From Zoogloea oleivorans (lineage in GTDB: Bacteria > Pseudomonadota > Gammaproteobacteria > Burkholderiales > Rhodocyclaceae): 32,465 nucleotides of DNA. The position numbers and the translations under genes are program-made. Below, piece after piece: positions 7,880 through 31,936 of the stretch. Numbering within the stretch: the stretch's first letter is position 1; each line of letters starts with the position of its first letter. The DNA is taken from the NCBI RefSeq assembly GCF_008107625.1, contig NZ_SDKK01000012.1, positions 74,356 through 106,820 of the forward strand, given 5' to 3'. The notes below the pieces were generated by a model. That model had not been told where the DNA came from, did no database searches, and was given only the letters and a program-made list of their open reading frames with translations.

Positions 7880-8213
7880 AATGTCGCTGGCGGAAGGTAT
7901 CCGCCAGATCGTCGAGGATGCCGGGCGCAGCCAGGGTTTTGGCAAGGTGAAGATCGTCGTGCTGGAAATCGGCGAGCTGTCGTCGGTGGAGCCCGAAAGC
8001 CTGCGCTTTTGCTTCGACGTGGTTATGAAGGACAGCATCGCCGATGGCGCGCAACTGCAGATCGACCCGGTGCCCGGCAGTGGCTGGTGCATGCAGTGCG
8101 CCGAAACGGTGCCGATAAGTGCCCTGTACGATCCTTGCCCGAAGTGCGGCAGCTACCAAGTGCAGGCCACCAGTGGCACCGAGATGCGGGTCAAGGAACT
8201 GGAAATCGAATGA
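7872..8213 (+). CDS. hypA: Nickel metallochaperone HypA
   Basis: This 113-residue protein works with HypB to put nickel into the large subunits. The start at 7872 gives the obligatory N-terminus MHEMSLAEGI; His2 is part of the nickel site. The zinc site is the double CxxC in the C-terminal half (GWCMQC and DPCPKC). It overlaps hoxV by 8 bases and precedes hypB by 11. Length and motifs are fully typical. Confidence 0.97.
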   Translation: MHEMSLAEGIRQIVEDAGRSQGFGKVKIVVLEIGELSSVEPESLRFCFDVVMKDSIADGAQLQIDPVPGSGWCMQCAETVPISALYDPCPKCGSYQVQATSGTEMRVKELEIE

Positions 8214-8224
8214 AGGTGGTTTGA

Positions 8225-9160
8225 ATGTGCAATGTGTGCGGTTGCGGAACCGGTGAAACCCGCATCGACGGCGAGGCTGTCGATCACGAACAGGAACACG
8301 AGCACGTGCTTGCGGACGGCACGGTGCATCGGCATAGCCACGGCCCGGCCGGCCAAAAGTGGGCGCCGGTGGCGGCAGGCCATGCGCACAGCCACGGGCC
8401 CGAGGGCGAGCACGTGCATGAAGACATGGACGGCAGCCTCCACTACGGCCACGGCCCGGCCGGTGCCCACGCACCGGGCATGAGCCAGGCCCAGATGGTG
8501 AAGATCGAGCAGAACATCCTTGCCAAGAACGACGGCTTTGCCGAGCGCAACCGCAGCTGGCTGGCGGAGCGGGGCATCCTGGCCCTCAACCTGGTGTCGA
8601 GCCCCGGTTCCGGCAAGACGACGCTGCTGGTGCGCACCATCGAAGCGCTGAAACGCCGAGTGCCCGTCGCTGTTGTCGAAGGCGACCAGCAGACCAGCTT
8701 CGATGCCGAGCGCATCCGTGCCACCGGCGCCCCGGCCCTGCAGATCAACACCGGCAAGGGCTGTCACCTCGACGCCCACATGGTCGGCCGGGCGCTGGAA
8801 AAGCTGGCTCCGTCCGACAACAGCGTGCTGCTCATCGAAAACGTCGGCAACCTGGTGTGCCCGGCCGCCTTCGACCTGGGCGAAGCCGCCAAGGTGGTGG
8901 TGCTGTCGGTCACCGAGGGCGAGGACAAGCCCCTCAAGTATCCCGACATGTTTGCCGCCGCCAGCCTGATGCTGGTGAACAAGATCGACTTGCTGCCCTA
9001 CCTGAACTTCCCCGTGGACAAGGCCATCGAGTACGCCTTGCGGGTCAATCCGAAGCTCCAGGTGATCCAGGTTTCTGCCACTACCGGCGCCGGTTTCCAC
9101 GAATGGCTGGGCTGGATCGATGCCCGGCTGGCCGAGGCCGTGGCCGCCAGAACCCGGTGA
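8225..9160 (+). CDS. hypB: Nickel-binding GTPase HypB
   Basis: This 311-residue GTPase delivers nickel with HypA. The N-terminus MCNVCGCG carries the high-affinity metal motif. Residues 21-82 contain 14 histidines, giving a nickel-storing stretch like that of rhizobial HypB. The P-loop SPGSGKT is at about 126-132. The CHLDAH segment holds the Cys and His residues of the GTPase-domain metal site. NKIDLLP is the guanine-specificity motif. The combination of storage and insertion functions fits the NikR and nickel-transport genes elsewhere in the window. Confidence 0.97.
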
Positions 9161-16546: not shown

Positions 16547-18273
16547 TGCGCATCCTGCTGCTCACCCACAGCTTCAACAGCCTCACCCAGCGCCTTTTTG
16601 AAGAACTTTCGGTACGCGGGCACGCGCTGTCGGTGGAGTTCGACATTGCCGATTCGGTGACCGCAGAGGCCGTCGCGCTGTTTCAGCCCGACGTGGTGCT
16701 GGCGCCCTTTCTCAAGCGGGCGATCCCCGAATCCGTGTGGTCGCGGCACGTGTGCCTGATCGTGCACCCCGGCATCGTCGGCGACCGCGGTCCGTCGGCC
16801 CTCGACTGGGCAATCCAGACGGGCGCGGCGGAGTGGGGCGTCACCGTGCTGCAGGCGGAGGCCGAGATGGACGCCGGCCCGGTGTGGGCGAGCGCCACCT
16901 TTCCGATGCGTGTGGCGACCAAGGCCAGCCTGTACCGCAACGAGGTGACCGAGGCGGCCGTCACCGCGGTGCTGGAAGCGCTGGGTCGCATGGACGACTG
17001 GCGGGCCGGACGCTGGCAGCCCGTGCGCCCGTCGGCTGATGATCCGGCGGTGCGTGGCCGCCTGCAGCCGACCCTGCGCCAGGCCGACCGGGCCATCGAC
17101 TGGGCGCGTGACGACACCGCCGCCATCCTTGCCCGCCTGCGCGCCGCCGATGGCTTTCCCGGCGTGGCGGATGCGCTGTTCGGCGTGCCCTGCCACCTGT
17201 TCGATGCCCATCTCGCCCCGGCGGAGGCTGGGGCGCAGCCGGGCGAACTGCTTGCCCGCCGCGACGGCGCGGTGCTGCGCGCGACGCGTGACGGCGCGAT
17301 CTGGATCGGCCATGTGAAGCGCGGCGAGCTCAAGCTGCCGACGACCGTGGCCTTTGCGGCCGAAGTCGCCGACCTGCCGGAGCGCCCGGCGGATCTGTGG
17401 CGTGACGCCACCGACGACGGCGCCGAGCTGCGCTACCGGGAGGCGGGCGCCGTCGGCTTCCTGTCCTTCGACTTCTACAACGGTGCCATGGCTACCGACC
17501 AGTGCCGGCGTCTGCTGGCGGCCATCGATTTTGCCCGTACGCGCCCGACCCGCGTGCTGGTGCTCGAAGGCGGCGCGGATTTCTGGTCCAACGGCATCCA
17601 CCTCAACCGCATCGAGGCGAGCGAGTCCGCCGCCGACGCGTCGTGGGCCAACATCAACGCGATGGATGACGTGTGCCTGGCCATCCTGCAACTCACCGAC
17701 CGCCTGACTGTTGCCGCCTTGCGTGGCAACGCCGGCGCCGGTGGCTGCTTCCTGGCGCTGGCCGCCGACCAGGTGTGGGCGCGGCAAGGCGTGATCCTCA
17801 ACCCCCACTACAAGAACATGGGCAACCTGTATGGCTCCGAGTACTGGACCTACCTGCTGCCCCGCCGCGTCGGTGCCGACGGTGCCCGCAAGCTGATGGC
17901 CGAACGCCTGCCGCTGGGCGCCCCGCGTGCCGCGCACAGCGGCCTCATCGACGCCAGCTTCGGCGCCAGCCGGGCCGCTTTCGAGCTTGAGGTGGCCAGC
18001 CGCGCCGCCGCCCTCGCCTGCGCCCCGGACTACGCCGATCAACTCGCCGCCAAGCAGGCCCGCCGAGCCGCCGACGAAGTCGCCAAGCCACTTGCCGCCG
18101 ACGAAGTCGCCAAGCCACTTGCCGCCTACCGTGACGAAGAGCTCACCCACATGCGCCGCAACTTCTATGGCTTCGACCCCAGCTACCACGGAGCACGCTA
18201 CCATTTCGTGATGAAAAGCCCCCAGTCCTGGACTCCCCGCCACCTCGCCGTTCACCGGGAACTCAAGCGATGA
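16546..18273 (+). CDS. hypX: HypX: formyltransferase/crotonase-like protein making CO for the active site in air
   Basis: This 575-residue two-domain protein (also called HoxX) starts at the ATG that overlaps the hypE stop; an in-frame TTG two codons earlier is less likely. The N-terminal half resembles formyl-tetrahydrofolate transferases (HPGIVGDRGPSALDWAI at about 70-86). The C-terminal half resembles enoyl-CoA hydratases (RGNAGAGGC, then NPHYKNMG). In Ralstonia and Aquifex, HypX takes a formyl group from N10-formyl-THF and releases CO, which becomes the iron ligand under aerobic conditions. A perfect 27-base tandem duplication near the end repeats AADEVAKPL. hoxA follows with a 4-base overlap. 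Confidence 0.94.
   Translation: MRILLLTHSFNSLTQRLFEELSVRGHALSVEFDIADSVTAEAVALFQPDVVLAPFLKRAIPESVWSRHVCLIVHPGIVGDRGPSALDWAIQTGAAEWGVTVLQAEAEMDAGPVWASATFPMRVATKASLYRNEVTEAAVTAVLEALGRMDDWRAGRWQPVRPSADDPAVRGRLQPTLRQADRAIDWARDDTAAILARLRAADGFPGVADALFGVPCHLFDAHLAPAEAGAQPGELLARRDGAVLRATRDGAIWIGHVKRGELKLPTTVAFAAEVADLPERPADLWRDATDDGAELRYREAGAVGFLSFDFYNGAMATDQCRRLLAAIDFARTRPTRVLVLEGGADFWSNGIHLNRIEASESAADASWANINAMDDVCLAILQLTDRLTVAALRGNAGAGGCFLALAADQVWARQGVILNPHYKNMGNLYGSEYWTYLLPRRVGADGARKLMAERLPLGAPRAAHSGLIDASFGASRAAFELEVASRAAALACAPDYADQLAAKQARRAADEVAKPLAADEVAKPLAAYRDEELTHMRRNFYGFDPSYHGARYHFVMKSPQSWTPRHLAVHRELKR
18067..18126 (+). repeat. 27-bp in-frame tandem duplication within hypX
   Basis: Units at 18067-18093 and 18094-18120 are identical, and the first six bases of the unit recur at 18121-18126. 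Each unit encodes AADEVAKPL. The identity at every third-codon position suggests a recent slippage event. It lies in the region after the crotonase core and keeps the frame. Confidence 0.95.
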
Positions 18274-19751
18274 GCAGCCCCTTCAAACCCGCCGCCCGCC
18301 TGCCCGCCGTGCTGGTGGTGGACGACGAAGTCCGCTCCCAGGAAGCCTTGCGTCGCACCCTCGACGAAGAGTTCGAGGTGTTCACCGCCTCGTCGGCCGA
18401 GGACGCCCAGAAGATCATGGAGCGGGAAACGTTACAGGTGCTGCTGTGCGACCAGCGCATGCCCGGCGAGTCCGGCGTCAGCTTTCTGAAGCGGGTGAGG
18501 AGCCAGTGGCCGGACGTGGTGCGCATCATCATCTCGGGCTACACCGATTCGGAAGACATCATCGCCGGCATCAACGATGCGGGCATCTACCAGTACCTGC
18601 TCAAGCCCTGGCAGCCCGACTCGCTGCTGATGGCGATCCGCAACGCTGCCGAGCTGTATCGCCTGCAGGCCGAAAACCAGCGCCTCAGCCTCGAGCTGCG
18701 CACCAGCAGCCCGGTGCTCCGGAAACGCGTTGAAATGAAGTACGAACGGGTCAAGCGCGAGTTCGGCCTCGACGGCCTGACCCGTGCGCCGGACAGCCCG
18801 CTGGGCCCGATCTGTGATCTGATCGCCCAGGTGGCGCCCTTCGACCTGTCGGTGCTGATCTCCGGTGAATCCGGCACCGGCAAGGAGATGCTGGCGCGGG
18901 CCATCCATTACCAGAGCCGCCGCGCCGACAAGGCCTTCGTGGTCGAGAACTGCGGTGCGCTGCCCGACGAACTGCTCGAAGCAGAACTCTTCGGTTACAA
19001 GCGCGGCGCCTTCACCGGCGCTTACGAAGACCGCATCGGGCTTTTTCAGCACGCCGACGGCGGCACGCTGTTCCTCGACGAGATCGGTGAAACCTCGCCG
19101 GCCTTCCAGGTCAAGCTGCTGCGTGTGCTGCAAGAGGGCGAGTTCCGCCCGCTGGGCAGCCCGCGTCCGATGACGGTGGACGTGCGGGTCATCGCCGCCA
19201 CCAACCGCGACCTGGAAACCGAGGTGCGCGAAGGGCGCTTCCGCGAGGATCTGTATTACCGTCTGGCCATCGTGCCGATCCACGTGCCGCCGCTGCGCGA
19301 GCGGCCGATGGACATCCCGCTGCTGGTCGAACGCCTGCTTGCGGTGAGCCAGGGCGCGCTGGGCAAGAGCTGCGAGGGCTTTACCCCCGAGGCCTTGGCC
19401 TGCCTCGCGGCCTACCGCTGGCCGGGCAATGTGCGCGAGCTGCAGAACGCCATCCTGCGCATGCTGGCGCTGTCCACCGGGCCGAAGCTGGGCGCTCACT
19501 TGCTGTCGCCGAAGGTCTTGCAATCCGGCACTGACGGGCACGATGACACCGATCTGGCGGCCGTCGGTTTTGCCGGCACCCTGCAGGAGCGGGTCGATGC
19601 GCTGGAAGCGCGGGTGCTCAAGGAAACCCTGATCCGCCTGCGCTGGAACAAGACCCGCGCGGCCAACGAGTTGGGCCTGTCGCGGGTTGGCCTGCGCGCC
19701 AAGCTGGTCCGCTACGGGCTGGACGGCGACAAGTCGGGAGGCGCCGAGTGA
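18270..19751 (+). CDS. hoxA: Sigma54-dependent response regulator of hydrogenase genes
   Basis: This 493-residue NtrC-type activator (HoxA/HupR) has three domains. The receiver has acidic residues D18/D19 and probable phosphoacceptor D61 (LLCDQRMPG). The AAA+ domain has Walker A GESGTGKE, the sigma54-contact loop GAFTGA and the DEIGE Walker B region. A Fis-type helix-turn-helix near the C-terminus contains [18 protein letters not shown]. In Ralstonia the unphosphorylated form is active, and the kinase HoxJ restrains it when H2 is absent. It overlaps hypX (ATGA) and hoxB (GTGA). The sigma54-like site before hoxM at 4047-4062 is a plausible target. Confidence 0.95.
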
Positions 19752-20743
19752 AGCTCCTGTGGTTGCAGTCCGGCGGCTGTGGTGGCTGCAGCATGTCCCT
19801 GCTGTGCTCCGGCGCGCAGGACGTGCTGGGGCTGCTCGCATCGGCCGGTATCGAGCTGGCCTGGCATCCGTCCCTGTCGGAAGCCAGTGGCGACGAGGTG
19901 CGGGCGATTCTGGCCGACTTCGAGTCCGGCCGCACGCCGCTGGATCTGCTGTGCGTGGAAGGTTCGCTGCTCACCGGGCCGAATGGCTCGGGGCGGTTTC
20001 ACATGCTGGGCGGCACCGGCCGGCCGATGATCGACTGGGTCAGGAGCCTGGCCGCCCGTGCCCGCTATACGCTGGGCGTCGGCACCTGCGCCACCTATGG
20101 CGGGGTGACGGCCGGCGGCATCAATCCGGCTGGCGCCATTGGTTTGCAGTACGACGGCAACCAGCGTGGCGGCTTGCTGGGGCCGGATTACCGCTCCGCC
20201 GCGGGCCTGCCGGTGATCAACATTGCCGGCTGCCCGACCCATCCGGACTGGGTGACCGACACCTTGCTGGCGCTCGCCCTGGGCCAGTTTGGCGAGGCCG
20301 ACATGGATGCTCTCGGTCGCCCGCGTTTCTACGCCGACCAGCTGGTGCACCACGGCTGCACCCGCAACGAGTTCTACGAGTTCAAGGCCAGCGCCGAGAA
20401 GCCCGGCGACCTCGGCTGCATGATGGAGCACATGGGTTGCGTCGGCACTCAGGCCCATGCCGACTGCAACATCCGGCCGTGGAACGGCGCCGGTTCGTGC
20501 ACCAACGGCGGCTACCCGTGCATCAGTTGTACCGAGCCGGGCTTTGAATCGCCCGGACACGCTTTCGGGCGGACGCCGAAGGTGGCCGGCATTCCCATCG
20601 GCCTGCCCTCCGATATGCCCAAGGCCTGGTTCGTGGCGCTGGCCGCCTTGTCCAAGTCGGCGACGCCGGCGCGGGTGCGCCAGAATGCGGTGGCCGAAAT
20701 GCCGGTGGTGGCGCCGGCCATCCGCAAGACAGGACTGAAATGA
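19748..20743 (+). CDS. hoxB: H2-sensing regulatory hydrogenase, small subunit
   Basis: This 331-residue Fe-S subunit of the cytoplasmic regulatory hydrogenase (HoxB/HupU) starts at GTG in a GTGA overlap with hoxA. It begins directly with the catalytic domain (SGGCGGCSMS, with C11 and C14). It has no Tat signal and no C-terminal anchor, which separates it from an uptake small subunit. Further ligands are visible in GTCATYGG, INIAGCPTHPDW, HHGCTRNEF, GCMMEHMGC and the NGGYPCISC region. With HoxC it detects H2 and signals through HoxJ. It ends in an ATGA overlap with hoxC. Confidence 0.95.
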   Translation: MKLLWLQSGGCGGCSMSLLCSGAQDVLGLLASAGIELAWHPSLSEASGDEVRAILADFESGRTPLDLLCVEGSLLTGPNGSGRFHMLGGTGRPMIDWVRSLAARARYTLGVGTCATYGGVTAGGINPAGAIGLQYDGNQRGGLLGPDYRSAAGLPVINIAGCPTHPDWVTDTLLALALGQFGEADMDALGRPRFYADQLVHHGCTRNEFYEFKASAEKPGDLGCMMEHMGCVGTQAHADCNIRPWNGAGSCTNGGYPCISCTEPGFESPGHAFGRTPKVAGIPIGLPSDMPKAWFVALAALSKSATPARVRQNAVAEMPVVAPAIRKTGLK

Positions 20744-22179
20744 GCCGGATTACGGTCGGACCTTTCAACCGGGTCGAGGGCGATCTGGAAATCAGCCTTG
20801 AAATGGAGAACGGGCGGGTTGCCGCGGCCTACGTGAATTCGCCGCTGTTCCGTGGTTTTGAGCAGATCCTGGTGGGCCGCGAGGCGATGGACGCGCTGGT
20901 GATCGTGCCGCGCATCTGCGGCATCTGCTCGGTGTCCCAGTCGGCTGCCGCGGCGGCGGCGCTGGCCGATCTGGCCGGCGTGCGGCCGACGCCCAACGGG
21001 CAGCGGGTCAGCAACCTGATCCTTGCGGCCGAGAACCTGGCGGATCACTTCACCCATTTCTACCTGTTCTTCATGCCGGACTTTGCCCGCGAGGCCTACC
21101 GGGCACGGCCGTGGTTTGCGGCGGCGGAGGCACGCTTCAAGGCGGTCAGCGGTTCGGCGGCGGGGGACGCGTTGCCGGCCCGGGCGGCCTTCATGCAGAT
21201 CATGGGCCTGCTGGCCGGCAAGTGGCCGCACACCCTCACGCTGCAGCCTGGCGGGGTGGCGCGGGCGCCGCAGGCGGCCGAGCGCCTGCGCGTGTTTGCG
21301 GCTCTGCGTGAATTCCGTGGGTGGCTTGAAAAGCGGCTGTTCGGCGATCGGCTGGAGAACATCACGGCCCTCGAATCGATTGCCGCGCTGCGGCGCTGGA
21401 TGGATGGGCGGTCGGCGACGAGTAGCGATTTTCGTCTGTTTCTCGAGATTGCCGATGACCTGCAACTGGCCCGCTACGGTCGGGCGACGGACCGTTTCCT
21501 CAGCCACGGCGCCTATCCACGGGAGGGCGGCTGGCTCTTGCCCCGGGGTGTGCTCGATCTGCCTGCGGGCTCACTGCAACCCTTTTTGCCCGCCGACGTG
21601 CTGGAGGATGTCAGCCATGCCTGGCTGGAGGACGATCAGCCGCGTCACCCCTCGGAGGGCGACACCCGTCCGGTGGAGGAGAAGGCCGGCGCCTACACCT
21701 GGTGCAAGGCGCCGCGCTGGCAGGAGCAGGTGGTGGAGTGCGGCGCGCTGGCCCGCCAGGCGGTGGCCGGCCATCCGCTGATCCGCGCACTGGTGGTGGA
21801 GGCCGGCGGTAACGTGGCCAGCCGGGTGATCGCCCGGCTGCTCGAACTGGCGCTGGTGGTGCCGGCCATGGAAAGCTGGCTGCGTGATCTGGATGACGGC
21901 CCTTTTTGCGCACAGACCGAGATCCCCGCCGACGGCCGCGGCTGCGGTCTCATCGAAGCGGCCCGGGGTGGGCTGGGTCACTGGCTCACGGTGCGCGGTG
22001 GCCACATCGTGCGCTACCAGATCATTGCCCCGACCACCTGGAACTTCTCGCCCCGCGATGCGGCCGGCACGCCGGGGGCGCTGGAGCAGGCCCTGGTGGG
22101 CCTGCCGGAGGCCGAACCGTTACTGGTTCAGCACGTGGTGCGCAGCTTCGATCCCTGCATGGTCTGCACCGTGCATTGA
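20740..22179 (+). CDS. hoxC: H2-sensing regulatory hydrogenase, large subunit
   Basis: This 479-residue catalytic subunit of the H2 sensor (HoxC/HupV) has nickel ligands C60 and C63 (RICGIC) and C473 and C476 (DPCMVC). The protein stops right at the His of DPCxxCxxH (H479), so there is no tail for a protease. This is the mark of regulatory hydrogenases. Ile62 and Phe110 occupy the positions that are Val77 and Leu125 in HoxG of this window; in Ralstonia HoxC these bulky residues narrow the gas channel and keep oxygen out. It is the last gene of the hypE-X-hoxABC run, with a GC hairpin 3 bases after the stop. Confidence 0.96.
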   Translation: MSRITVGPFNRVEGDLEISLEMENGRVAAAYVNSPLFRGFEQILVGREAMDALVIVPRICGICSVSQSAAAAAALADLAGVRPTPNGQRVSNLILAAENLADHFTHFYLFFMPDFAREAYRARPWFAAAEARFKAVSGSAAGDALPARAAFMQIMGLLAGKWPHTLTLQPGGVARAPQAAERLRVFAALREFRGWLEKRLFGDRLENITALESIAALRRWMDGRSATSSDFRLFLEIADDLQLARYGRATDRFLSHGAYPREGGWLLPRGVLDLPAGSLQPFLPADVLEDVSHAWLEDDQPRHPSEGDTRPVEEKAGAYTWCKAPRWQEQVVECGALARQAVAGHPLIRALVVEAGGNVASRVIARLLELALVVPAMESWLRDLDDGPFCAQTEIPADGRGCGLIEAARGGLGHWLTVRGGHIVRYQIIAPTTWNFSPRDAAGTPGALEQALVGLPEAEPLLVQHVVRSFDPCMVCTVH

Positions 22180-23244: not shown

Positions 23245-24279
23245 ATGAAAATCGCTGCAGCCAGTCTGGAACTTGCCGCCTTCCATCACACGTCCAGCAA
23301 GGTCGAGGTGGAGGAGCGCCTGTCGGCGTGGGTGGGGCGCCGCTTGCCGTCCCGGAGTGATGCGGATGACGCTTCGTCGCGCAGCGTGTTGCTGTCCGAT
23401 GCGGGGCGACAGGCTTTGAGCAATGATCGGAGCGTGATCTCGGCAGCCAGCGCGCCAGTGTCCGGTGACGAGGTGGAAACCGATCCGAAGCTGGAACTCC
23501 TCAAGTCCATCGTCGAAATGCTGACCGGTCAGCGGATCCACCTGATGTCGGCCTCGGCGATGAGCCCGGATGGGCTGCCTGCTGCCGAGGCGGCCAACGG
23601 GGCCGCCCGCGGGCCGGAGTTCGGTATCGAGTATGAGCGCACCGAGACGCGTCAGAGTAGCGAGGAAACCGGTTTCGAGGCCAGCGGGACGATTCGCACT
23701 GCAGACGGGCAGAACATCCAGTTCAGCGTCGGGCTGTTCATGTCGCGCAGTGAGACCGAAACCAGCAGTTTCAGCTTCCGTGCCGGCAATGCGGTGAGCA
23801 AGGATCCGCTGGTGATCAACTTCGGCGGCAACGCAGCCAGTTTGCGCAACCAGCGCTTCCAGTTCGACCTGATGGGCGATGGCAAACAGGTGGATATTCC
23901 TGTGCTTGGCCAGGGCAGCGGCTTTCTGGTGCTCGACGCGGTGGATAGCGGCAAGGTGAACTCCGGTAAGCAACTGTTCGGGCCGGCCAGCGGCGATGGT
24001 TTTGCCGACCTGGCCAAATACGACAGTGACGCCAACGGCTGGATCGACGAGGCTGACCCGGCATTCCAGCGCCTGGGTGTATGGACGCCGGATGCCAAGG
24101 GCGGTGGCGCCGTGGCGAGCCTGGCAGAGGCCGGCGTCGGGGCGCTCTACCTTGGGTACAGCGCCACGCCTTTCACGCTGAAGGACGGGGCCGAGCTGGG
24201 GGCGGTGCGCAGTTCCGGTATCTACGCCCGCGAGGATGGCAGCGTGGGCACGCTGCAGCAGGTGGATCTGAAGGTCTGA
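23245..24279 (+). CDS. Conserved protein with EF-hand-like calcium loop, probable flagellar regulon member
   Basis: This 344-residue protein has a GAGGAG ribosome site at 23233-23238. The N-terminus MKIAAASLELAAFHHTSSKVE is a pattern I associate with a proteobacterial hypothetical family that lacks a named function. The C-terminal half has PLVINFGGNAASL, a GSGFLVLD-KVNSGKQLFG segment, and then DSDANGWIDEADPAFQRLGVW at about 259-279. The last is an EF-hand-like calcium loop typical of VCBS/dockerin-like repeats. There is no signal peptide. The sigma28-like promoter upstream suggests expression with late flagellar genes. It ends 10 bases from the convergent thioesterase gene. Confidence 0.8.
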   Translation: MKIAAASLELAAFHHTSSKVEVEERLSAWVGRRLPSRSDADDASSRSVLLSDAGRQALSNDRSVISAASAPVSGDEVETDPKLELLKSIVEMLTGQRIHLMSASAMSPDGLPAAEAANGAARGPEFGIEYERTETRQSSEETGFEASGTIRTADGQNIQFSVGLFMSRSETETSSFSFRAGNAVSKDPLVINFGGNAASLRNQRFQFDLMGDGKQVDIPVLGQGSGFLVLDAVDSGKVNSGKQLFGPASGDGFADLAKYDSDANGWIDEADPAFQRLGVWTPDAKGGGAVASLAEAGVGALYLGYSATPFTLKDGAELGAVRSSGIYAREDGSVGTLQQVDLKV

Positions 24280-24288
24280 GGCCCGGGC

Positions 24289-24729
24289 TTACGCCACAAC
24301 GGCCGGTGCGCCTATCTTGATCCGGAAGGCTTCGGGGATGCCGGCGGCCCGCTTGGCGGCGTAATCGAAGAACAGGATGCCCATTTTGCCGCGGGCCACT
24401 TCGCGGCCGCTGGCCTTGTCGGCTACGCGCCACATCAGGTCGAAGCCGTATTTGTTGAAGTCGGCGGGGGCCATCGAGAAGACCAGGGTTTCGCCGTGAA
24501 AGGCTTCGGACTTGTACTGCAGCGCGGCGTCGGCGACCACGATGCCGACCCCTTCCACGTCCAGTTCGTCGTAGCCGAAGGAGCGGAAGAAGCGCACGCG
24601 GGCTTCCGACAGCAGGGCGATGAGGGCGGCGTTGTCGAGGTGCTGGGCCTTGTTGATGTGGGTGATGTAGATCGGCACTTCGGTGGAGAACAGGAAGTGC
24701 TCGGGCAGATCGATGAGGATGCGGGCCAT
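24289..24729 (-). CDS. Hot-dog-fold acyl-CoA thioesterase family protein
   Basis: This 146-residue single-domain protein is of the 4-hydroxybenzoyl-CoA/YbgC thioesterase type. The N-terminal stretch ITHINKAQHLDNAALIALLSEARVRFF resembles the family pattern in which an Asp or Asn next to an aligned His activates water or forms an acyl intermediate. The start at 24729 has AAGGA 7 bases upstream. It stands alone, convergent with the gene before it and divergent from nikR. The substrate cannot be read from the sequence. No tie to hydrogenase is apparent. Confidence 0.85.
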   Translation of the reverse strand: MARILIDLPEHFLFSTEVPIYITHINKAQHLDNAALIALLSEARVRFFRSFGYDELDVEGVGIVVADAALQYKSEAFHGETLVFSMAPADFNKYGFDLMWRVADKASGREVARGKMGILFFDYAAKRAAGIPEAFRIKIGAPAVVA

Positions 24730-24861
24730 GGGTGAATCCTTGGAGGGGGCAGGTCGGAGAAGCCCTGATTATCGCAGTGCAGCGAGGGCGGAGGGGGGAC
24801 GATTGCGCCCGTGTCATGGGCGCAGGCAGAATGGGCCGATTGATCCTGTCCGGAGTGCCCC

Positions 24862-25338
24862 GTGGAACGCTTCACCATTTCCCTCGACGAAGACCTGGCC
24901 CGCGAGTTCGACGCGCTGATTGCGGCGCGGGGGTACTCCAACCGTTCCGAGGCGGTGCGCGACATCCTGCGCGCCCAGATCGAAGCGCGTCGCCTGGCCA
25001 GCGAGGAGGCGAGCCACTGCATCGCCAACCTGTCCTACGTGTACAACCACCACGAGCGCGAGCTGGCCGAGCGGGTTACGCAGGACCAGCATGAACACCA
25101 CGACCTGTGCGTGGCCACACTGCATGCTCATCTGGATCACGACAATTGCATGGAGAGCGTGATCCTGCGCGGCCCGACCAGCGAGGTGCAGGCCTTTGCC
25201 GAGGCGTTGATCGCCAAGCCGGGCATCCGCCACGGCGCGCTCAACCTGGTGACGGCCGAATTCCGCAGTCAGCCGCATTCGCATTCTCACGCGGACGGAC
25301 ACAGCCATCCCCATGGTCACTACCGTCCGCGCAGCTGA
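24862..25338 (+). CDS. nikR: Nickel-responsive regulator NikR
   Basis: This 158-residue ribbon-helix-helix repressor starts at GTG (MERFTISLDEDLAREFDALI), the exact family N-terminus. The DNA-binding part is residues 1-45 and the ACT-like nickel-binding part about 55-135. The residues matching E. coli NikR H76, H87, H89 and C95 are H77, H88, H90 and C96, all present. An extra tail of about 20 residues (137-158) is rich in His (HSHSHADGHSHPHGH), which is unusual and may buffer nickel. hoxJ begins 3 bases after the stop. The NikR-like operator at 26821-26847 before the nickel permease gene is an obvious target. No such site was seen before nikR itself. Confidence 0.97.
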   Translation: MERFTISLDEDLAREFDALIAARGYSNRSEAVRDILRAQIEARRLASEEASHCIANLSYVYNHHERELAERVTQDQHEHHDLCVATLHAHLDHDNCMESVILRGPTSEVQAFAEALIAKPGIRHGALNLVTAEFRSQPHSHSHADGHSHPHGHYRPRS

Positions 25339-25341
25339 GCC

Positions 25342-26688
25342 ATGAGCAACCCGGAGCGTCTGCTGCCCGATTCCACCGCCCTGCTGGCCGCGGCGCCGGA
25401 GGGCGTGGGTGAGGGGGCGTGGATCGATGTGATCCAGAAGATGGACGAGGTCTATTCCGACCTGCTCCAGTACGAGGTGGCGCTGGAGGAGAAGAACGCC
25501 CGGCTGGAGGAGAGTCAGGGTTTCATCCTGTCGGTGCTGACCTCCATTTCCGACATTCTGGTGGTGTGCGACCGGGGCGGACGCATCGAGGATGTGAACC
25601 GTTCTCTGGAGGTGTTCACCGGTCGCTCGCTGGATGAACTGCGCGGCAGCCTGTTCTTCGATCTGCTCGCCGACCCGGCGGCGGTGGGCGTGGCGAAGGG
25701 CCTCTTCGCCCTGCGCAGCGATGCGCCGGTGCACGATTGCGAGCTGGCCCTGCGGGCCGCCGATGGCAGTGCAGTGCCGGTATCGCTCAACTGCACACCG
25801 CGCTATTCGTCGGTGGGCAAGTCGCTGGGGGTGGTGGTCACCGGCCGGCCGGTGGGCGAGCTGCGCAAGGCTTACTCGGCGCTGCGTCAGGCTCACGACG
25901 ACCTGAAGCGCACCCAGCAGCAGCTTCTGCATTCCGAGAAGATGGCTTCGCTTGGGCGGCTGGTGGCGGGGGTGGCCCATGAGCTCAACAACCCGATCAG
26001 CTTCATCCTTGGCAATACCCATGCGCTGAAGCGCTACGCGGCCCGGCTCGGCGAATACCTGGCGGCCGTGCACAGCGGGGAGCCGCCTGAGGCGCTGCTG
26101 GCATTGCGCGAGCGCCTGCGCATCGACCGCATCCTTGGCGATCTGGATCCGCTCATCGAAGGCACCATCGAGGGGGCCGAGCGGACCCGCGACATCGTGG
26201 ATGGCCTCAAACGCTTCTCGGCGCTGGACCGGGAGGAGAGCGTTCGCTTCGATCTGGTGACGGTGGTCGAGCGTTCGGTGAGCTGGGTCTGCAAGGCCGC
26301 GCCGGAGCGTTTCACGGTGACGGTGACCTTGCCGGACAGCTTGCCGGTGATCGGTTCATCGGGACAGATCCAGCAGGTGGTGATGAATCTGGTCCAGAAC
26401 GCCTGCGATGCGACGGCGGAGCAAGGCGCGGCGCGGCTCGAAATTGCCGGCGTGGTCGAGGGGGCGGACGTGGTGCTGCGTTTCCACGACAACGGGCCGG
26501 GTATCGAGGCCCGCCATCTGGCGCATATCTTCGATCCCTTCTTCACCACCAAACCGGTGGGGAGCGGAACCGGGCTGGGGCTGTCGATCAGCTACGGTAT
26601 CGTCGAACGTCACGGCGGCAAGCTGTTGGCCGCCAATCATGCCGACGGCGGTGCCGAGTTCGTGCTGCGCCTGCCGTTGGCGGGGTGA
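25342..26688 (+). CDS. hoxJ: Histidine kinase of the H2-sensing system
   Basis: This 448-residue cytoplasmic kinase (HoxJ/HupT) has a PAS domain at about 60-170 and a short coiled stretch at 175-200. Its dimerisation box carries phosphoacceptor H213 (GVAHELNNPISF). The ATP-binding domain has the N box (NLVQNACDAT), DNGPGI and GSGTGLGLS. No membrane segments are seen, in keeping with a kinase that binds the soluble HoxBC sensor. Every catalytic motif is intact, so it should be active; in some strains HoxJ is mutated. It lies about 3.2 kb from hoxABC, unlike the usual hoxABCJ order, and sits immediately behind nikR in what looks like one transcript. Confidence 0.94.
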   Translation: MSNPERLLPDSTALLAAAPEGVGEGAWIDVIQKMDEVYSDLLQYEVALEEKNARLEESQGFILSVLTSISDILVVCDRGGRIEDVNRSLEVFTGRSLDELRGSLFFDLLADPAAVGVAKGLFALRSDAPVHDCELALRAADGSAVPVSLNCTPRYSSVGKSLGVVVTGRPVGELRKAYSALRQAHDDLKRTQQQLLHSEKMASLGRLVAGVAHELNNPISFILGNTHALKRYAARLGEYLAAVHSGEPPEALLALRERLRIDRILGDLDPLIEGTIEGAERTRDIVDGLKRFSALDREESVRFDLVTVVERSVSWVCKAAPERFTVTVTLPDSLPVIGSSGQIQQVVMNLVQNACDATAEQGAARLEIAGVVEGADVVLRFHDNGPGIEARHLAHIFDPFFTTKPVGSGTGLGLSISYGIVERHGGKLLAANHADGGAEFVLRLPLAG

Positions 26689-26806
26689 GTGCGATCCGCT
26701 GTCACCCAGTGGATGTAGGGCAAGCATGGTTTGCGATCGGGCTGCGTTCTGGCAGGACGCTTGCCATCCGTCCGTGGCGACAGCTTGATGGAACGGTGTT
26801 TTTTGC

Positions 26807-26834
26807 TTGGCATGGATTTTGTATGAACTAAAAT
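26807..26834 (+). promoter_or_regulatory. Sigma70 promoter of the nickel import operon
   Basis: TTGGCA (26807-26812) and TAAAAT (26829-26834) are each one base off consensus and 16 bases apart. The start would be near 26841, about 26 bases before the permease ATG. The NikR-like operator covers the -10 region, so nickel-bound NikR would block RNA polymerase. Confidence 0.65.
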
Positions 26835-26847
26835 AACTTCTTCATAC
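26821..26847. promoter_or_regulatory. NikR-like operator: GTATGA-N15-TCATAC
   Basis: Both half-sites are identical to those of the E. coli NikR operator (GTATGA-N16-TCATAC), but the spacer is 15 rather than 16. The site overlaps a good sigma70 promoter and ends 19 bases before the start codon of a nickel-permease gene, with nikR encoded about 1.5 kb upstream. Context and perfect arms make the call strong despite the spacer. Confidence 0.8.
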
Positions 26848-26866
26848 GCGCGTGCCAGCCGATCCC

Positions 26867-27691
26867 ATGACTGCCTTGCCAACCGACAGCCTCGCCCTCG
26901 TCCTGCTGGTGTTCGTGCTTGGCCTCAAGCACGGTTTCGACGCTGACCATCTGGCCACCATTGACGGCCTGACGCGCTACAACGCCCGGACCAACCCGGG
27001 TCTGGCGCGTTTCTGTGGGACCTTGTTCTCTCTTGGCCACGGGGCGGTGGTGCTGGCGATTGCGCTGGCGGTCAGCCTGCTGTCGCAGGGCTGGACGCCG
27101 CCGGAATGGCTGGAGTTATCGGGCGCATGGATTTCGATTGCCTTCCTGGTCCTGCTTGGTGTGCTCAATTTGCGTGCGGTATTCGCTGCCGAAACGCACG
27201 AAATGGTGCATCCGGTGGGGCTCAAGGGCCGCTGGCTGGGGCGTCTCGGGCAGGTTACCCATCCGGGTGGCGTGGCGCTGGTGGGCGCGCTGTTTGCCTT
27301 GTCATTCGATACGGTGAGTCAGGCCGCGCTGTTTGCGGTGGCTGGCGTACAGGCTGGTGGGTGGCTGCACGCGGTCAGCCTGGGTTTTGTGTTCATGTTC
27401 GGCATGTTGCTGGCGGACGGCGCCAACGGTTTCTGGATCGCCCGGCTGATTGCCCGGGCCGATGATTCCGCCCGTGTGGCGTCGCGCGTGATGGCCTTGG
27501 CGGTGGGGGGCATGAGCCTGCTGGTGGCCGCCTACGGCATTGCCCGGATGGTCCTGCCCGGCATCGCGGCGTGGGGCGAGGGCAAGGAGTTGCTGCTTGG
27601 TGCTGCGGTGATCGGGGTGGTTTTGGCGAGCTTTGTTCTGGGTGTGCGTCTTGCCCGACCACGTGGCGTGGCCAGCCAGGTTGCGGGGTAG
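26867..27691 (+). CDS. hupN: Nickel/cobalt permease of the HoxN/HupN/NixA (NiCoT) family
   Basis: This 274-residue inner membrane permease has several hydrophobic helices. The family signature GLKHGFDADHLATIDGLTR lies near residue 20, and FSLGHGAVV matches the second motif. Two other signatures are altered: LSFDTVSQ instead of LGFDTATE, and MLLADGANG instead of MxLxDTxDG. It may therefore belong to a divergent, shorter branch. The ATG at 26867 was preferred to GTG at 26852 because the latter would lie almost on the predicted transcript start; neither has a good ribosome site. The NikR-like operator upstream argues for nickel as substrate. A TonB-dependent receptor gene follows after 12 bases. 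Confidence 0.9.
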   Translation: MTALPTDSLALVLLVFVLGLKHGFDADHLATIDGLTRYNARTNPGLARFCGTLFSLGHGAVVLAIALAVSLLSQGWTPPEWLELSGAWISIAFLVLLGVLNLRAVFAAETHEMVHPVGLKGRWLGRLGQVTHPGGVALVGALFALSFDTVSQAALFAVAGVQAGGWLHAVSLGFVFMFGMLLADGANGFWIARLIARADDSARVASRVMALAVGGMSLLVAAYGIARMVLPGIAAWGEGKELLLGAAVIGVVLASFVLGVRLARPRGVASQVAG

Positions 27692-27703
27692 AAGAGCGTT
27701 GCG

Positions 27704-29776
27704 GTGCTGATGGCGTTGCGCGCGTTTGCTCTTGTTGCGGCGTTTGTGGGGGTTGCCGGCCAGGTGATGGCTGACGGCGTACCGACCCTGGATGTTGTCG
27801 AGGTACGGGTCGGGCCGGCGGATCTGATCGGCGCGGCCGTGAGCGCCACCGAAGGCGTGCTGACGACGCATCAGCTTGAAACCCGGCCCTTGCTGCGTCC
27901 GGCCGAAGTGCTCGAGGCGGTGCCGGGCCTGATCGTGTCCCAGCACAGTGGCGACGGCAAGGCCAATCAGTATTACCTGCGCGGCTTTAACCTCGATCAC
28001 GGCACCGACTTCGCCACCTGGCTGATGGGCATGCCGGTGAACATGCCGACCCACGCCCACGGGCAGGGGTACACCGATCTCAACTTCCTGATCCCTGAAC
28101 TGGTTTCCAGCCTGCGTTACCGCAAGGGGCCGTACTACGCAGAGGAGGGGGATTTTTCGGCGGCGGGGGCCACCCACATTGACTATCGTCGCAGTCTGTC
28201 CCGCCGTTTTATGCAGGCGGAGTTCGGGCCGCATCAGTACACGCGCCTGCTGGCTGCCGGCTCACGCCTCCTTCCGGAGAATGGCCCGGTACTGCTGGGG
28301 GCTGTCGAGGTGGCGTACAACAATGGTCCGTGGGGCCAGCGAGAGAATCTGCGCAAGCTCAACGCCGTGCTGCGCCTGTCTGCGGGCACGGTCGACAACG
28401 GCTGGTCGGCCACGGCGATGGCCTACCAGTCAGCCTGGACGGCGACCGACCAGGTGCCCCGGCGGGCCGTCGACAATGGTTTCATCGACCGTTTCGGCAG
28501 TCTCGACCCGACCAGCGGTGGCAAGACGAGCCGGTCCAGCCTGTCGGCAGAATGGGCGAGGAGTGACGCGGCGGGGCGGTCGCGGGCCGCCGCCTACCTG
28601 ATCGACTACCGGCTCGATCTCTTTTCCAACTTCACCTATGCCCTCGACAACCCGCTGCGCGGTGATCAGTTCGAGCAGCTCGACCGGCGCCAGATTCTCG
28701 GTGCGACAGCTAGCCATACCTGGTTTGCCGACTGGTCCGGGCGGCCTGTGGAGTGGGTGCTTGGCAGCCAGTTCCGGCACGACCATATCGGCAAGAGCGG
28801 ACTTTTTCTTGCCGAAGCCCGCCAGCGCTACACCACGGTGCGCGACGACCGTGTCGAGCAGACCAGCTTCGGGCTTTTCGGTGAAGCGCGGGTACAGTGG
28901 CGGGACACGCTACGCACCACGCTCGGCTTGCGCGCTGACCAGTACCGTTTCGACGTGAGCAGTGATACGCCGGCTAATAGCGGGCAGGCCGCTGCCTTTA
29001 TCGCCGCTCCCAAGTTCGGCGTCGTTCTCGGACCGTGGATGCAGACCGAGTTTTACGCCAACTACGGCCATGGTTTTCACAGCAACGATGGCCGCGGTGC
29101 GACGATTCGCGTCAATCCCGATCCGCGCAGTGCCGACTACGCTGGCCTGGTGGAACGGGTCAGGCCGCTGGTTCGTGCGCGCGGGACGGAGCTTGGTCTT
29201 CGCAGTGCGCTGGCCTCGGGCTGGCTGACGACCCTGGCCCTGTGGCGGCTTGATGTCGCCTCGGAGCTGCTTTTTGTGGGTGATGCCGGTATCACCGAGC
29301 CGAGTCGTCCGTCCCGCCGCCAGGGCGTGGAGTGGACGACTCACTGGACGCCCCTGTCCGGGCTGGCGGTGGATGCGGATGTCGCCGTGTCGAGCGCCCG
29401 TTTTCGGGTCGATGAGGGGGGCGGCAGTCGTATCCCCGGGGCCCTTGCCAGGGTCGCCTCCCTGGGCGTGACGCTCGATACGGGCGATCGCTGGTTTGGC
29501 GGCCTGCGGATGAGATACTTTGGCTCCCGTCCACTGATCGAGGACAATTCGGTACGATCCGCATCCTCGATCTTGACCAATCTTAAGGTCGGTTACCGTG
29601 TCGACCGGCACATTACGCTGTCGCTGGATGTGTTGAACCTGTTCGACCGCCAGCTCAGCGACATCGATTACTACTACGAGTCCCAGTTGAAAACCGAAAC
29701 CGCGCCCGTTGCCGATCTCCACTCCCACCCGTCCGAGCCTCGCAGTCTGCGGCTGGCGGTGCGCATGGCCTTGTGA
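27704..29776 (+). CDS. TonB-dependent outer membrane receptor, probably for a nickel complex
   Basis: This 690-residue receptor begins at GTG 27704 or ATG 27710, both giving a signal peptide that ends near VMA (residue 23). TLDVVEV at about 28-34 is a likely TonB box. The plug domain contains LLRPAEVLEAVPGLIV and the YYLRGFNLDHGTDF segment. The rest is a beta-barrel with alternating strands. The last residue is Leu rather than the usual Phe/Trp. The substrate is not readable from the sequence. Position in a NikR-controlled transcript between a nickel permease and a TonB protein suggests nickel or a nickel chelate, as known for FrpB4 in Helicobacter. Confidence 0.9.
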   Translation: MLMALRAFALVAAFVGVAGQVMADGVPTLDVVEVRVGPADLIGAAVSATEGVLTTHQLETRPLLRPAEVLEAVPGLIVSQHSGDGKANQYYLRGFNLDHGTDFATWLMGMPVNMPTHAHGQGYTDLNFLIPELVSSLRYRKGPYYAEEGDFSAAGATHIDYRRSLSRRFMQAEFGPHQYTRLLAAGSRLLPENGPVLLGAVEVAYNNGPWGQRENLRKLNAVLRLSAGTVDNGWSATAMAYQSAWTATDQVPRRAVDNGFIDRFGSLDPTSGGKTSRSSLSAEWARSDAAGRSRAAAYLIDYRLDLFSNFTYALDNPLRGDQFEQLDRRQILGATASHTWFADWSGRPVEWVLGSQFRHDHIGKSGLFLAEARQRYTTVRDDRVEQTSFGLFGEARVQWRDTLRTTLGLRADQYRFDVSSDTPANSGQAAAFIAAPKFGVVLGPWMQTEFYANYGHGFHSNDGRGATIRVNPDPRSADYAGLVERVRPLVRARGTELGLRSALASGWLTTLALWRLDVASELLFVGDAGITEPSRPSRRQGVEWTTHWTPLSGLAVDADVAVSSARFRVDEGGGSRIPGALARVASLGVTLDTGDRWFGGLRMRYFGSRPLIEDNSVRSASSILTNLKVGYRVDRHITLSLDVLNLFDRQLSDIDYYYESQLKTETAPVADLHSHPSEPRSLRLAVRMAL

Positions 29777-30495
29777 TGACTGATCGGGGGCTGTTGTACG
29801 CGATGGGGGCGTCGATTCTGGCGCATGGCCTGCTGCTCGGTTTTGGCGGAGCGAGTCATGCGCCGGTGCCAGCAGCGCAGCCTCTGCTGGAGGCTCGCCT
29901 GGTGCCGGAAGCGCTTCCGGAGAAAAAGCCCGAACCCCCCCGCGTCGCGCCAGCGCAGTCCCGGCAGGCGCTACCCGAGCCGCCGCGTCCGGTGAAGGCG
30001 CAAGCCCGGCCGGAGCCTGTCTCGGCCCCACTGCCGCGCATCGTTGCCGATGCGCGCAGCGAGCATCCTGCTCCGGCCATCCTGAGCGCCCCGGCGGTCG
30101 TTGCAGCTCATGCCACCGCTGTCGCCCATGCGCCGGTGGCCAGCGGGCCGGTGACGCCAGCTCCTGCCCAAGTGGCGAGCGCGGCAAGCGGCGCCAGTTA
30201 CTCACCACCCAGTTTCGGGGCGAGCTACCTGGACAATCCCAAGCCCGGTTATCCGATGATGGCCCGTCGGCGTGGCCTGGAGGGCACCGTTCGTCTCGAC
30301 GTGCGGGTGTCCGCCGAGGGCATCCCCATTGCGGTCAAGCTGAAAGAGAGCGCGGGCCATGACTCGCTTGACGAAGCGGCCGTCACCGCCGTCTGGCACT
30401 GGCGCTTTGTTCCGGCCCGGCGTGGCGGTGAGGCGGTGGAGGCGTCGGTGGTCGTGCCGGTGCGTTTCCGTCTGAGCGCCGACGACGCTGGCTGA
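29776..30495 (+). CDS. TonB-family energy-transducing protein
   Basis: This 239-residue protein starts at the ATG overlapping the receptor's stop (TGATG). Residues 6-26 form the N-terminal membrane helix. The middle, about 30-150, is rich in Pro, Ala and charged residues and should span the periplasm. The C-terminal domain (about 150-235) has the TonB fold signature YPMMARRRGLEGTV and ends with VWHWRFVPARRGG. No exbB or exbD is found in the window, so it must share a motor encoded elsewhere. Coupled translation with the receptor suggests a dedicated partner. Confidence 0.92.
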   Translation: MTDRGLLYAMGASILAHGLLLGFGGASHAPVPAAQPLLEARLVPEALPEKKPEPPRVAPAQSRQALPEPPRPVKAQARPEPVSAPLPRIVADARSEHPAPAILSAPAVVAAHATAVAHAPVASGPVTPAPAQVASAASGASYSPPSFGASYLDNPKPGYPMMARRRGLEGTVRLDVRVSAEGIPIAVKLKESAGHDSLDEAAVTAVWHWRFVPARRGGEAVEASVVVPVRFRLSADDAG

Positions 30496-30502
30496 CTACC
30501 TC

Positions 30503-31123
30503 ATGTCTCTTCATCTCTGGTTGGGTTTTCTCGCCGCGACGCTGGTGGTCGCGCTTTCACCCGGTCCGGGCGCAGTGCTCAGCATGAGCGTCGGTCTGCG
30601 CCACGGCTACCGGCACGCGCTGGCGGCAATTCTTGGTTTGCAGACGGCCTTGCTCCTGCAGTTGTCGCTGGTTGCGCTTGGTCTTGGCGCGCTGCTGGCC
30701 GCGTCGGAAAACGCTTTTCTGGCCGTCAAGCTGGCAGGGGCGGCTTATCTGGTGTGGCTGGGCGTGCAGAAATGGAGGTCGCCGGTCGGGGAGGAGGGCG
30801 CGTCGCCGATGGATGAGGCCTTGAAGAGCGGCTTCTACCGGCAGGGCATCCTGGTTAATTTGGGGAATCCGAAGGCGATTGTCTTCATCGCGGCGCTGGT
30901 TCCCCAGTTCATCGATCCCGCGGCCCCCAAGGCGATCCAGTTTCTGGTCATCGGGATCACCATGTTCAGCATCGACGTGGCGGTGATGTCCGGTTACGCG
31001 TTGCTGGCCGGCCGCTTCCGCAATCGCGTGAGGGATCGCCGGGCCGTGGTACTGCAAAACCGGATGTTCGGCGCCATCTTCGTGGGCGCAGGGTGTCTTC
31101 TGGCAGGGGCATCCCGCCACTGA
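30503..31123 (+). CDS. LysE/RhtB-family exporter
   Basis: This 206-residue membrane protein has about six hydrophobic helices. The N-terminal segment LVVALSPGPGAVLSMSVGLRHG and the central ILVNLGNPKAIVFIAALVPQF are signatures of the amino-acid exporter family. It starts 7 bases after the TonB stop and is probably on the same transcript. The true substrate is not known; many members export amino acids, and some relatives in this superfamily move metal ions. Its place behind the nickel genes may be chance or may reflect export. Confidence 0.88.
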   Translation: MSLHLWLGFLAATLVVALSPGPGAVLSMSVGLRHGYRHALAAILGLQTALLLQLSLVALGLGALLAASENAFLAVKLAGAAYLVWLGVQKWRSPVGEEGASPMDEALKSGFYRQGILVNLGNPKAIVFIAALVPQFIDPAAPKAIQFLVIGITMFSIDVAVMSGYALLAGRFRNRVRDRRAVVLQNRMFGAIFVGAGCLLAGASRH

Positions 31124-31132
31124 TCGCCCCGT

Positions 31133-31936
31133 TTAATGTTCGTCGGCGGATATCTGGTCGAGGGCGGCCTCGGTAAGTCCCAGTTCCGCTTCCACGGGTT
31201 CGGCCCAGTCTGTCCAGTCCGGCGATAGGCCGTCGCGGAGCCGTCTTCCGGTGGCGAGCAGCAGGGCAATCCGTCGGGCGCTGTCCCCCAGTCGCAGGGC
31301 CATCGCCGGTTCGTGATGGGCGCGGATGGCTTCGCAGACTTCCACCGGGAGCTTCCAGTTGCGCGCCACCAGAAAGCCGGCTGCGGTGTGGTCGGAGCCT
31401 GTCAGTACGTCCAGGGCGCGGGCTCCTGCTTCAAGGGCGCAACCCGTGCAGTGGAAGAGCACGGCATGTTCCGGGGCGCGGCGCAGCAGCACTGCAATTC
31501 CCGCGTCCTGCATCAGTGCTGCCAGATAGGCTGTGTCAGCCAGCCCCTTGAAAGGTGTCGCGCGGCACACTGCATAAGTAAGATCCGCCGCCCGGGCGCT
31601 GGCCGCCCACAGGGCCTCAATGGCCTTGTCGTCGAGGCCCGAGCCCTGGTTCCTGAGAGCCGTGCTGGCGGCGGTGGCCAGAGTCCGGGTGCGCCCCAGC
31701 ATGGTGATCGCTTCCTGTGCCGAGCGCGGAGCGCTGCGTGGCCTGAATACGGGGGAGTTGGCGACGCGCAGCAAGGCACCGGTTATGGCTGGGTCCTGGC
31801 TTACCGCTGCGGCAAGCTCCCTCGGTCCGGCATTCTCGTCCGCTGCTGCGGCTTGCAGCCTGAGAAAGCCTGGGCCTGGTGCGGGCAGCACCACGCCGCT
31901 GGCCAGAACTGCTTCGACAAGTAGATCCTGATTCAT
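31133..31936 (-). CDS. HDOD-domain signalling protein
   Basis: This 267-residue protein is mostly one HDOD domain (about 10-210), recognised by LAAAVSQDPAITGALLRVANSPVF near residue 42 and a later LMQDAGIAVLL. HDOD proteins lack full HD metal ligands and act in signalling, often linked to motility or second messengers. The N-terminus overlaps no other gene, and GGGAG precedes the start. It converges on the exporter gene with a 9-base gap. Nothing ties it to hydrogenase. Confidence 0.88.
   Translation of the reverse strand: MNQDLLVEAVLASGVVLPAPGPGFLRLQAAAADENAGPRELAAAVSQDPAITGALLRVANSPVFRPRSAPRSAQEAITMLGRTRTLATAASTALRNQGSGLDDKAIEALWAASARAADLTYAVCRATPFKGLADTAYLAALMQDAGIAVLLRRAPEHAVLFHCTGCALEAGARALDVLTGSDHTAAGFLVARNWKLPVEVCEAIRAHHEPAMALRLGDSARRIALLLATGRRLRDGLSPDWTDWAEPVEAELGLTEAALDQISADEH

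Follow-up and report, generated by a model that had tools for sequence, protein, structure and literature searches.

A probable NikR-regulated nickel import operon in Zoogloea oleivorans, with a tonB gene retained across the genus where the adjacent receptor is missing

A 32,465-nucleotide stretch of the Zoogloea oleivorans genome (contig NZ_SDKK01000012.1, positions 74,356 to 106,820; hereafter the window) carries on its + strand, at 26807–30495, a promoter, an operator and genes for a NicO-family permease, a TonB-dependent receptor (TBDT) and a TonB protein, in that order. From the gene content, the operator and the comparative context we regard this operon, with good confidence, as the NikR-regulated nickel import unit of a Zoogloea-type bacterium, in which the TonB would serve the whole nickel regulon and a DNA element inside the receptor gene would give tonB some transcription of its own. 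The type of receptor is already predicted in print, and homologues near hydrogenase genes stand in public records; what is new is the retention of the TonB without a neighbouring receptor, the scars left at the place of the missing receptor, and the embedded element. To our knowledge, a route for nickel across the outer membrane has been tested in few bacteria besides Helicobacter.

The first gene (26867–27691, +) encodes a nickel/cobalt permease of the wider Pfam NicO family (PF03824, 63.5 bits, cut-off 27.7), the only NicO copy in the 5.68-Mb genome; assignment to the HoxN/HupN/NixA subfamily was rejected (TIGR00802, 63.6 bits against a cut-off of 333.05), and a sequence search of the PDB with this protein returned no match. 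An alternative GTG start at 26852 was discarded in favour of ATG 26867, the start conserved across five aligned upstream regions. Its stop codon lies 12 nt before the GTG start of the TBDT gene (27704–29776, +; barrel 96.3 bits, plug 44.5 bits), which encodes the proposed nickel-chelate receptor and shares 4 nt with tonB (29773–30495, +; TonB_C 73.7 bits, cut-off 24.6), bearing out the spacing and overlap reported in a preliminary description of the locus. The TonB combines this C-terminal domain with a membrane anchor and an N-terminal SxxxH pattern, as expected of a TonB. The AlphaFold model of the receptor (mean predicted local distance difference test score 88.7) has the TBDT fold, with PqqU/YncD as the nearest solved structures at 17–18% identity; by sequence, only distant TBDT matches were found among solved structures. 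The invariant histidines of the receptor are H81, H99, H119, H459 and H675.

The operator, GTATGA-N15-TCATAC (GTATGAACTAAAATAACTTCTTCATAC; 26821–26847, +), is a perfect palindrome of NikR type overlapping the −10 region of a sigma70-like promoter, TTGGCA-N16-TAAAAT (26807–26834, +), assigned to nicO–TBDT–tonB by promoter scan and alignment. It is the single match in the window, with none in 100 shuffles, and at spacers of 13–17 the perfect form occurs at one place in the genome; the promoter is the sole promoter-like match in 24700–31200, where shuffles average 0.6. Across five aligned upstream regions (the window, Zoogloea loci L004, L005 and L006, and locus L008 of a Rhodocyclales metagenome-assembled genome) the operator, ATG 26867 and most of the −35 TTGGCA (26807) are conserved, the TGGCA being identical in all five, and the flanks are not. 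The half-sites are those of the E. coli nikABCDE operator, GTATGA/TCATAC (PMC7055735), with a spacer of 15 in the window and 16 in E. coli; a span of 27–28 bp is on record for enterobacterial NikR sites (PMC545781). The nikR gene (24862–25338, +; PRK02967, 200 bits, cut-off 83) is present in a single copy in the genome and ends 1.5 kb upstream of the operator. Its product has both the RHH domain and the C-terminal nickel-binding domain of a NikR (matches PF08753, 100.9 bits, and PF01402, 40.5 bits), scores 155 with TIGR02793, below the cut-off of 175.45, and can be aligned with E. coli NikR (1q5v), where the positions of H76, H87, H89 and C95, which we take to be the nickel ligands, are occupied by H, H, H and C.

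With a unique operator placed on the promoter and conserved in relatives, and nikR close upstream, the NikR control put forward in the preliminary description appears probable. That a single operator would govern all three genes, as also proposed there, may be too simple, considering that the receptor gene contains a conserved element. A wider NikR regulon built on the same motif was rejected for this genome, the runner-up sites at spacer 15 having two mismatches and resembling background (at up to three mismatches there are 538 matches, and 378 with the reversed control). An Rfam scan of the window found no cobalamin riboswitch, its only RNA matches being three tRNAs, and riboswitch control of the operon was rejected on that ground.

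In the mechanism that we propose, a low level of nickel in the cell would take NikR off the operator, and the sigma70-type promoter would transcribe nicO, the receptor gene and tonB. The receptor would bind a nickel chelate outside the cell; TonB, with ExbB/ExbD encoded elsewhere (for example the exbB–exbD pair of contig C73), would drive the chelate into the periplasm; NicO would move nickel into the cytoplasm; and the Hyp proteins would load the hydrogenases with it, the H2-sensing HoxBC included. When nickel is ample, Ni-NikR would cover the −10 region and transcription would be turned off. The TonB would act beyond the adjacent receptor, for the entire nickel regulon, and the element in the receptor 3′ end would probably give tonB some separate transcription.

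The assignment to nickel draws on a comparison of 82 receptor loci, made up of the best 80 of 116 relatives from a scan of genome contigs, the window, and a paralogue in the same genome (L002). Of the 82, 34 have an operator with at most one mismatch close to the receptor (20 perfect, 14 with one mismatch), and 12 permuted half-sites searched in the same loci gave 0–1 perfect and 0–4 one-mismatch matches each, where the real half-sites gave 20 and 17; spacer 15 predominates, with spacer 16 in three Methyloversatilis loci. NikR, NicO and HoxC were found within 35, 20 and 13 loci (hidden Markov model thresholds of 80, 300 and 600 bits), counts that are lower bounds, many loci being cut by contig ends. 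When all 82 were scanned at Rfam gathering scores, a cobalamin riboswitch was found upstream of the receptor in seven (L002, L038, L040, L042, L044, L071 and L083), none of which has an operator at up to one mismatch. The paralogue L002 is 53% identical to the window receptor and has a cobalamin riboswitch scoring 117.7 bits. Given the 34 loci with an operator and a 53%-identical paralogue that sits beside cobN behind a riboswitch, nickel is favoured as the best reading of the operon's substrate, and the nickel role advanced earlier is likewise consistent with the sole NicO of the genome and the hydrogenase and Hyp genes of the window. Two such receptors in one genome, one under a NikR operator and one under a cobalamin riboswitch, make a direct comparison of nickel and cobalt specificity possible. 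The paralogue stands behind a cobN–ExbB–DUF2149 set: locus L111 of the same genome (C44:38000–56000) shows the order cobN, ExbB-like protein, DUF2149, cobalamin riboswitch and TBDT paralogue. As the neighbour of the ExbB-like protein, DUF2149 may play the part of ExbD.

On the receptor tree, which has 79 rows after partial receptors L007, L062 and L070 were left out, 33 rows have an operator, seven a riboswitch and 39 neither, and NikR-type and riboswitch-type receptors interleave. A single clade of cobalamin-type receptors (the seven riboswitch rows plus L047) was rejected (approximately unbiased test, p-AU 4e-9), and the Zoogloea pair L002/L047 groups beside the Zoogloea nickel clade with a Shimodaira–Hasegawa-like approximate likelihood ratio (SH-aLRT) support of 98. 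With the classes interleaved and a single clade rejected, it is regulatory context, rather than deep ancestry, that separates nickel from cobalamin classes, and these receptors may have changed their preferred metal repeatedly. The same interleaving implies that related receptors may change metal or be poorly selective, and with the cobalt permeases within the NicO family and the receptor paralogues behind cobalamin riboswitches it lends something to the idea that the unit imports cobalt, or cobalt and nickel together, with NikR as a nickel-only brake. We hold that idea to be quite improbable, considering that cobalt or B12 is provided for in this genome by another receptor, the one with cobN and the riboswitch, and that the window offers no detected cobalamin riboswitch beside its NikR and hydrogenase genes.

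Among the receptor loci, a tonB was found after the receptor in seven of the 82, namely the window and L004–L008 (4-nt overlap) and L034 (38-nt gap), and was not found after the receptor in the other 75, some of whose contigs end too early to tell. Among 23 genomes of the genus, the window's own included, 21 have a full-length TonB orthologue at 52–100% identity, the two without being G007 and G020, whose contig ends within the receptor. Apart from the window's own genome, the locus was fetched in 20 of 22 (G007 and G022 excluded, the latter corresponding to L007 by coordinates), and NicO is followed by TonB on the same strand in 19 of these, which with the window makes 20 of 23. A receptor lies between them in five of the 20 (G000, G002, G003, G015 and G017) and is absent in 15. 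In all 15 gaps the best match among receptor genes is the receptor 3′ end (E 1e-20 to 0.04), and 14 match it at E 1e-3 or better, in what we call scars. The gap of G009 (E 0.042) does no better than control matches, whose lowest E values are 0.011, for the kinase gene in G004, and 0.032, for nicO in G021; a further weakness of the comparison is that four receptors (8.3 kb) were set against five control genes (5.4 kb). The possibility of a small gene in the gap was rejected for want of a common reading frame in 14 gaps, and the gaps are best read as receptor remnants. In 11 of the 15 scar genomes, another locus holds a homologous receptor under a perfect N15 operator of its own (ten as L134–L143, and G016 in L153).

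The number of losses may be one or several. A tree built from NikR, NicO, TonB and HDOD proteins requires three changes of the receptor/scar label, and a single clade of receptor holders was rejected (p-AU 5e-6), which is compatible either with several receptor losses or with one loss followed by return through recombination. The scars start alike, at receptor nucleotides of about 1807–1842 in 12 of 15 as numbered on two different receptors, and such similar starts agree with one loss and later return, or with a constraint. Retained as it is without a neighbouring receptor, the TonB seems tied to nickel uptake and not to the adjacent receptor, and the linked TonB of the preliminary description has found comparative support. 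That the TonB is of the general kind, placed in this operon but energising iron and other receptors as well, is unlikely in our estimate, although TonB proteins are often exchangeable, the genome holds five TonB_C and five ExbD places, and the separate conserved element may drive tonB independently of NikR; set against this are the position behind NicO in those 20 genomes, 15 of them with no adjacent receptor, and the canonical tonB–exbB–exbD set that contig C73 already provides, adjoining another receptor. The genus thereby offers a natural experiment on the dedication of a TonB to a single metal, the adjacent receptor having been lost and the TonB retained. Tentatively, and with more doubt than belief, the arrangement may be pictured as a fixed NicO–TonB core under NikR with an exchangeable receptor, lost in 15 of 20 genomes, perhaps repeatedly, and replaced elsewhere in 11, whose best-kept remnant would be a 3′ DNA element serving as promoter or leader of tonB.

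That element lies at 29529–29588 (+) in the receptor 3′ end. The best-conserved part of the scars, in an alignment of 11 of the 15 gaps with four intact copies (G004, G008, G009 and G018 left out), is GGACAATTC-N-GTA-NN-AT plus flanks, and its core occurs within three mismatches in 12 of 15 gaps, equalled by at most one of 200 shuffles per gap; gaps G004, G008 and G018 are without it. At the element, the codons GTA CGA are used by all six tonB-linked receptors of the genus, by none of the seven readable receptors without tonB (of ten), and by none of 25 unlinked rows in a wider list that partly overlaps with the genus genes; in the six linked genes GTA makes up about 4–13% of valine codons and CGA 3–8% of CGN arginine codons. 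Synonymous identity among the six tonB-linked copies rises to 0.71 over codons 607–632 and 0.79 over 633–667, against 0.53 over 668–690 and 0.52–0.64 over 40–606, whereas six unlinked copies have no synonymous peak (0.69 and 0.72 against 0.59–0.74). The receptor 3′ region with elevated synonymous conservation and unusual codons extends over 29529–29704.

From these patterns we read the element, with moderate confidence, as a likely tonB promoter or leader. The alternative, that it has no promoter function and survives as a remnant through chance or recent descent, is given somewhat less than even weight. In favour of this alternative, the promoter scan of 24700–31200 did not flag the element, a consensus fold of the scar region as RNA gave three pairs with no covariation and thus no conserved fold, the element is missing from three of 15 gaps, recent origin is possible for some scars, and the matched stretch codes for a well-conserved protein motif. 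A remnant of that kind fits poorly with codons that follow linkage to tonB and with a synonymous peak confined to the linked copies. Genome-wide, the core at up to two mismatches gives one match, a perfect one, and its reversed control likewise gives one, and a scan of viral contigs for the element gave none. If the promoter or leader reading is true, a regulatory element hidden in coding sequence and exposed by a deletion scar would make a neat testable case.

The preliminary description held such a unit to be little described outside Helicobacter, a view that the published record does not support. Predictions of this kind made by Rodionov in 2006 are reportedly based on NikR sites and gene context. 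In the literature, FecA3, FrpB4, CntO, Bll6948, Daro_3944, Rgel01002199 and NikH are named as nickel TBDTs (PMC11247825); Bll6948, Daro_3944, RPA_4757, pHCG3_081 and Daro_1684 form a nickel/cobalt group (PMC3400609); and a paper citing Rodionov 2006 gives nickel as the predicted substrate of Daro_3944 of Dechloromonas and Bll6948 of Bradyrhizobium, and cobalt as that of Daro_1684 (PMC7142613). Dechloromonas aromatica is thereby listed with both a nickel and a cobalt receptor, a pairing that the window genome would share. The window receptor appears to be of the same kind, having the plug, the barrel and homology to a listed member, where the Afipia pHCG3 gene OCA5_RS17450 is presumably the listed pHCG3_081, and Daro_3944 presumably a homologue as well; the window receptor differs in the overlapping tonB. 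In Helicobacter, H. pylori NikR regulates frpB4 and exbB/exbD (PMC7055735) and a tonB2 mutant contains less nickel (PMC13367063), so that FrpB4 with TonB2–ExbB–ExbD likewise pairs a NikR-controlled TBDT with a TonB required for normal nickel content. There tonB2 belongs to an exbB–exbD operon, whereas the window tonB follows permease and receptor without exbBD, and FrpB4 clusters apart from the predicted nickel/cobalt TBDTs (PMC2771747). A literature search found no description of a NikR-controlled NicO–receptor–TonB operon; Rodionov 2006 and Schauer 2008 lay outside that search, and absence is not claimed.

Homologues beside hydrogenase or nickel genes, on Afipia pHCG3, C. necator pHG1 and a Bradyrhizobium plasmid, also speak against rarity; they come from 52 plasmid records, five of which were examined. 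On Afipia pHCG3 a 44.5%-identical receptor is divergent from nikR, with a one-mismatch N16 operator between the two and one gene between nikR and hypB. C. necator pHG1 has the hydrogen sensor (hoxB, hoxC), kinase and nickel permease hoxN ordered as in the window, with a HoxN-type permease and a 53%-identical TBDT 4.4 kb after hoxN; nikR and tonB are not among its listed genes, in a gene table (PLSDB) that is incomplete and with no search aimed at either. Between hoxN and this receptor (L106, pHG1 17842–37824) there is an apparent reverse transcriptase frame, presumably of group II intron type, and permease and receptor may formerly have been adjacent. A Comamonadaceae plasmid carries nikR followed by the receptor with a one-mismatch N15 operator, and on the Bradyrhizobium 62B plasmid the receptor is flanked by a HoxN-type permease with a one-mismatch N16 operator on one side and a hydrogenase cytochrome b on the other.

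Several observations weigh against the operon as a dedicated nickel import unit. NicO and the receptor family can handle nickel or cobalt; 48 of the 82 receptor loci have no operator within one mismatch, and the 39 tree rows with neither operator nor riboswitch are about half of the 79. The pHG1 homologue has no operator within two mismatches (spacers 15–17, 20 kb), and the homologue on the Methylorubrum CM4 plasmid has none and lies near cobalamin genes. ExbB/ExbD are encoded outside the operon: gene calls in the neighbourhood of tonB include no exbB, and the five ExbD places are all on other contigs. No NikR-linked receptor was found in four of the 15 scar genomes (in G001, G019 and G021 the fetched receptors have no operator, and that of G009 is truncated where its contig begins), and conservation of neighbours inside one genus may partly reflect shared descent. 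What the sequences show directly is the gene content, the operator and its overlap with the promoter, the conservation, the setting of the paralogue, the scars and the element; repression, nickel as the substrate, co-transcription, the ExbBD partner, the dedication of the TonB and promoter activity of the element are proposed from them.

Downstream, a gene for a LysE/RhtB-family exporter (30503–31123, +; PRK10520, 216.2 bits, cut-off 209) begins 7 nt past tonB and is possibly co-transcribed with it; the same gene follows tonB in the window and in 13 of the 20 regions fetched from the genus, with several of the remainder truncated at the end of a contig. Export of an amino-acid-like nickel ligand by this protein is conceivable, though unsupported.

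Upstream, NikR has a histidine-rich C-terminal tail with seven histidines in the last 30 residues, and most of the 35 receptor-linked NikRs have at least four there, with two in five Methylophilus proteins and one in L028. A HoxJ-like PAS histidine kinase (25342–26688, +; PAS, HisKA and HATPase domains) begins 3 nt after nikR, within an H2-sensor cluster, and the pairing of nikR with such a kinase recurs among relatives. The cluster also comprises a HoxA-like NtrC-family response regulator (18270–19751, +; NtrC/AtoC-like NCBIfam matches below cut-offs), a HoxB-like regulatory hydrogenase small subunit (19748–20743, +; small-subunit matches below cut-offs) and a HoxC-like large subunit (20740–22179, +), the kinase and regulator names, like the Hox names generally, following gene order. 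HoxC ends in DPCMVCTVH without an extension, which we take to be a mark of H2-sensing hydrogenases, and with kinase and regulator in one cluster it conforms to that type.

Further upstream lie HypA, a nickel metallochaperone (7809–8213, +; PF01155, 122 bits, cut-off 28.9), for which a later ATG may be the true start, and HypB, a nickel incorporation protein (8225–9160, +; PRK10463, 410.8 bits, cut-off 385), both of which had been named as the destination of the imported nickel. The window further encodes cytochrome b, HypC, HypF, HypD, HypE, a HoxX-like protein with formyltransferase and enoyl-CoA hydratase domains, and a hydrogenase large subunit that matches E. coli hydrogenase 1 best (PRK10170, 961.7 bits, below the cut-off of 1101). 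Between hypD and hypE, at 13385–15415, a protein of chemotaxis-receptor type with FIST, FIST_C and MCPsignal domains is placed as if it were a chemosensor associated with the cluster. A 344-aa protein without a Pfam match (23245–24279) lies between the hydrogenase sensor genes and nikR, and has relatives at the equivalent position in L004, L005 and L006.

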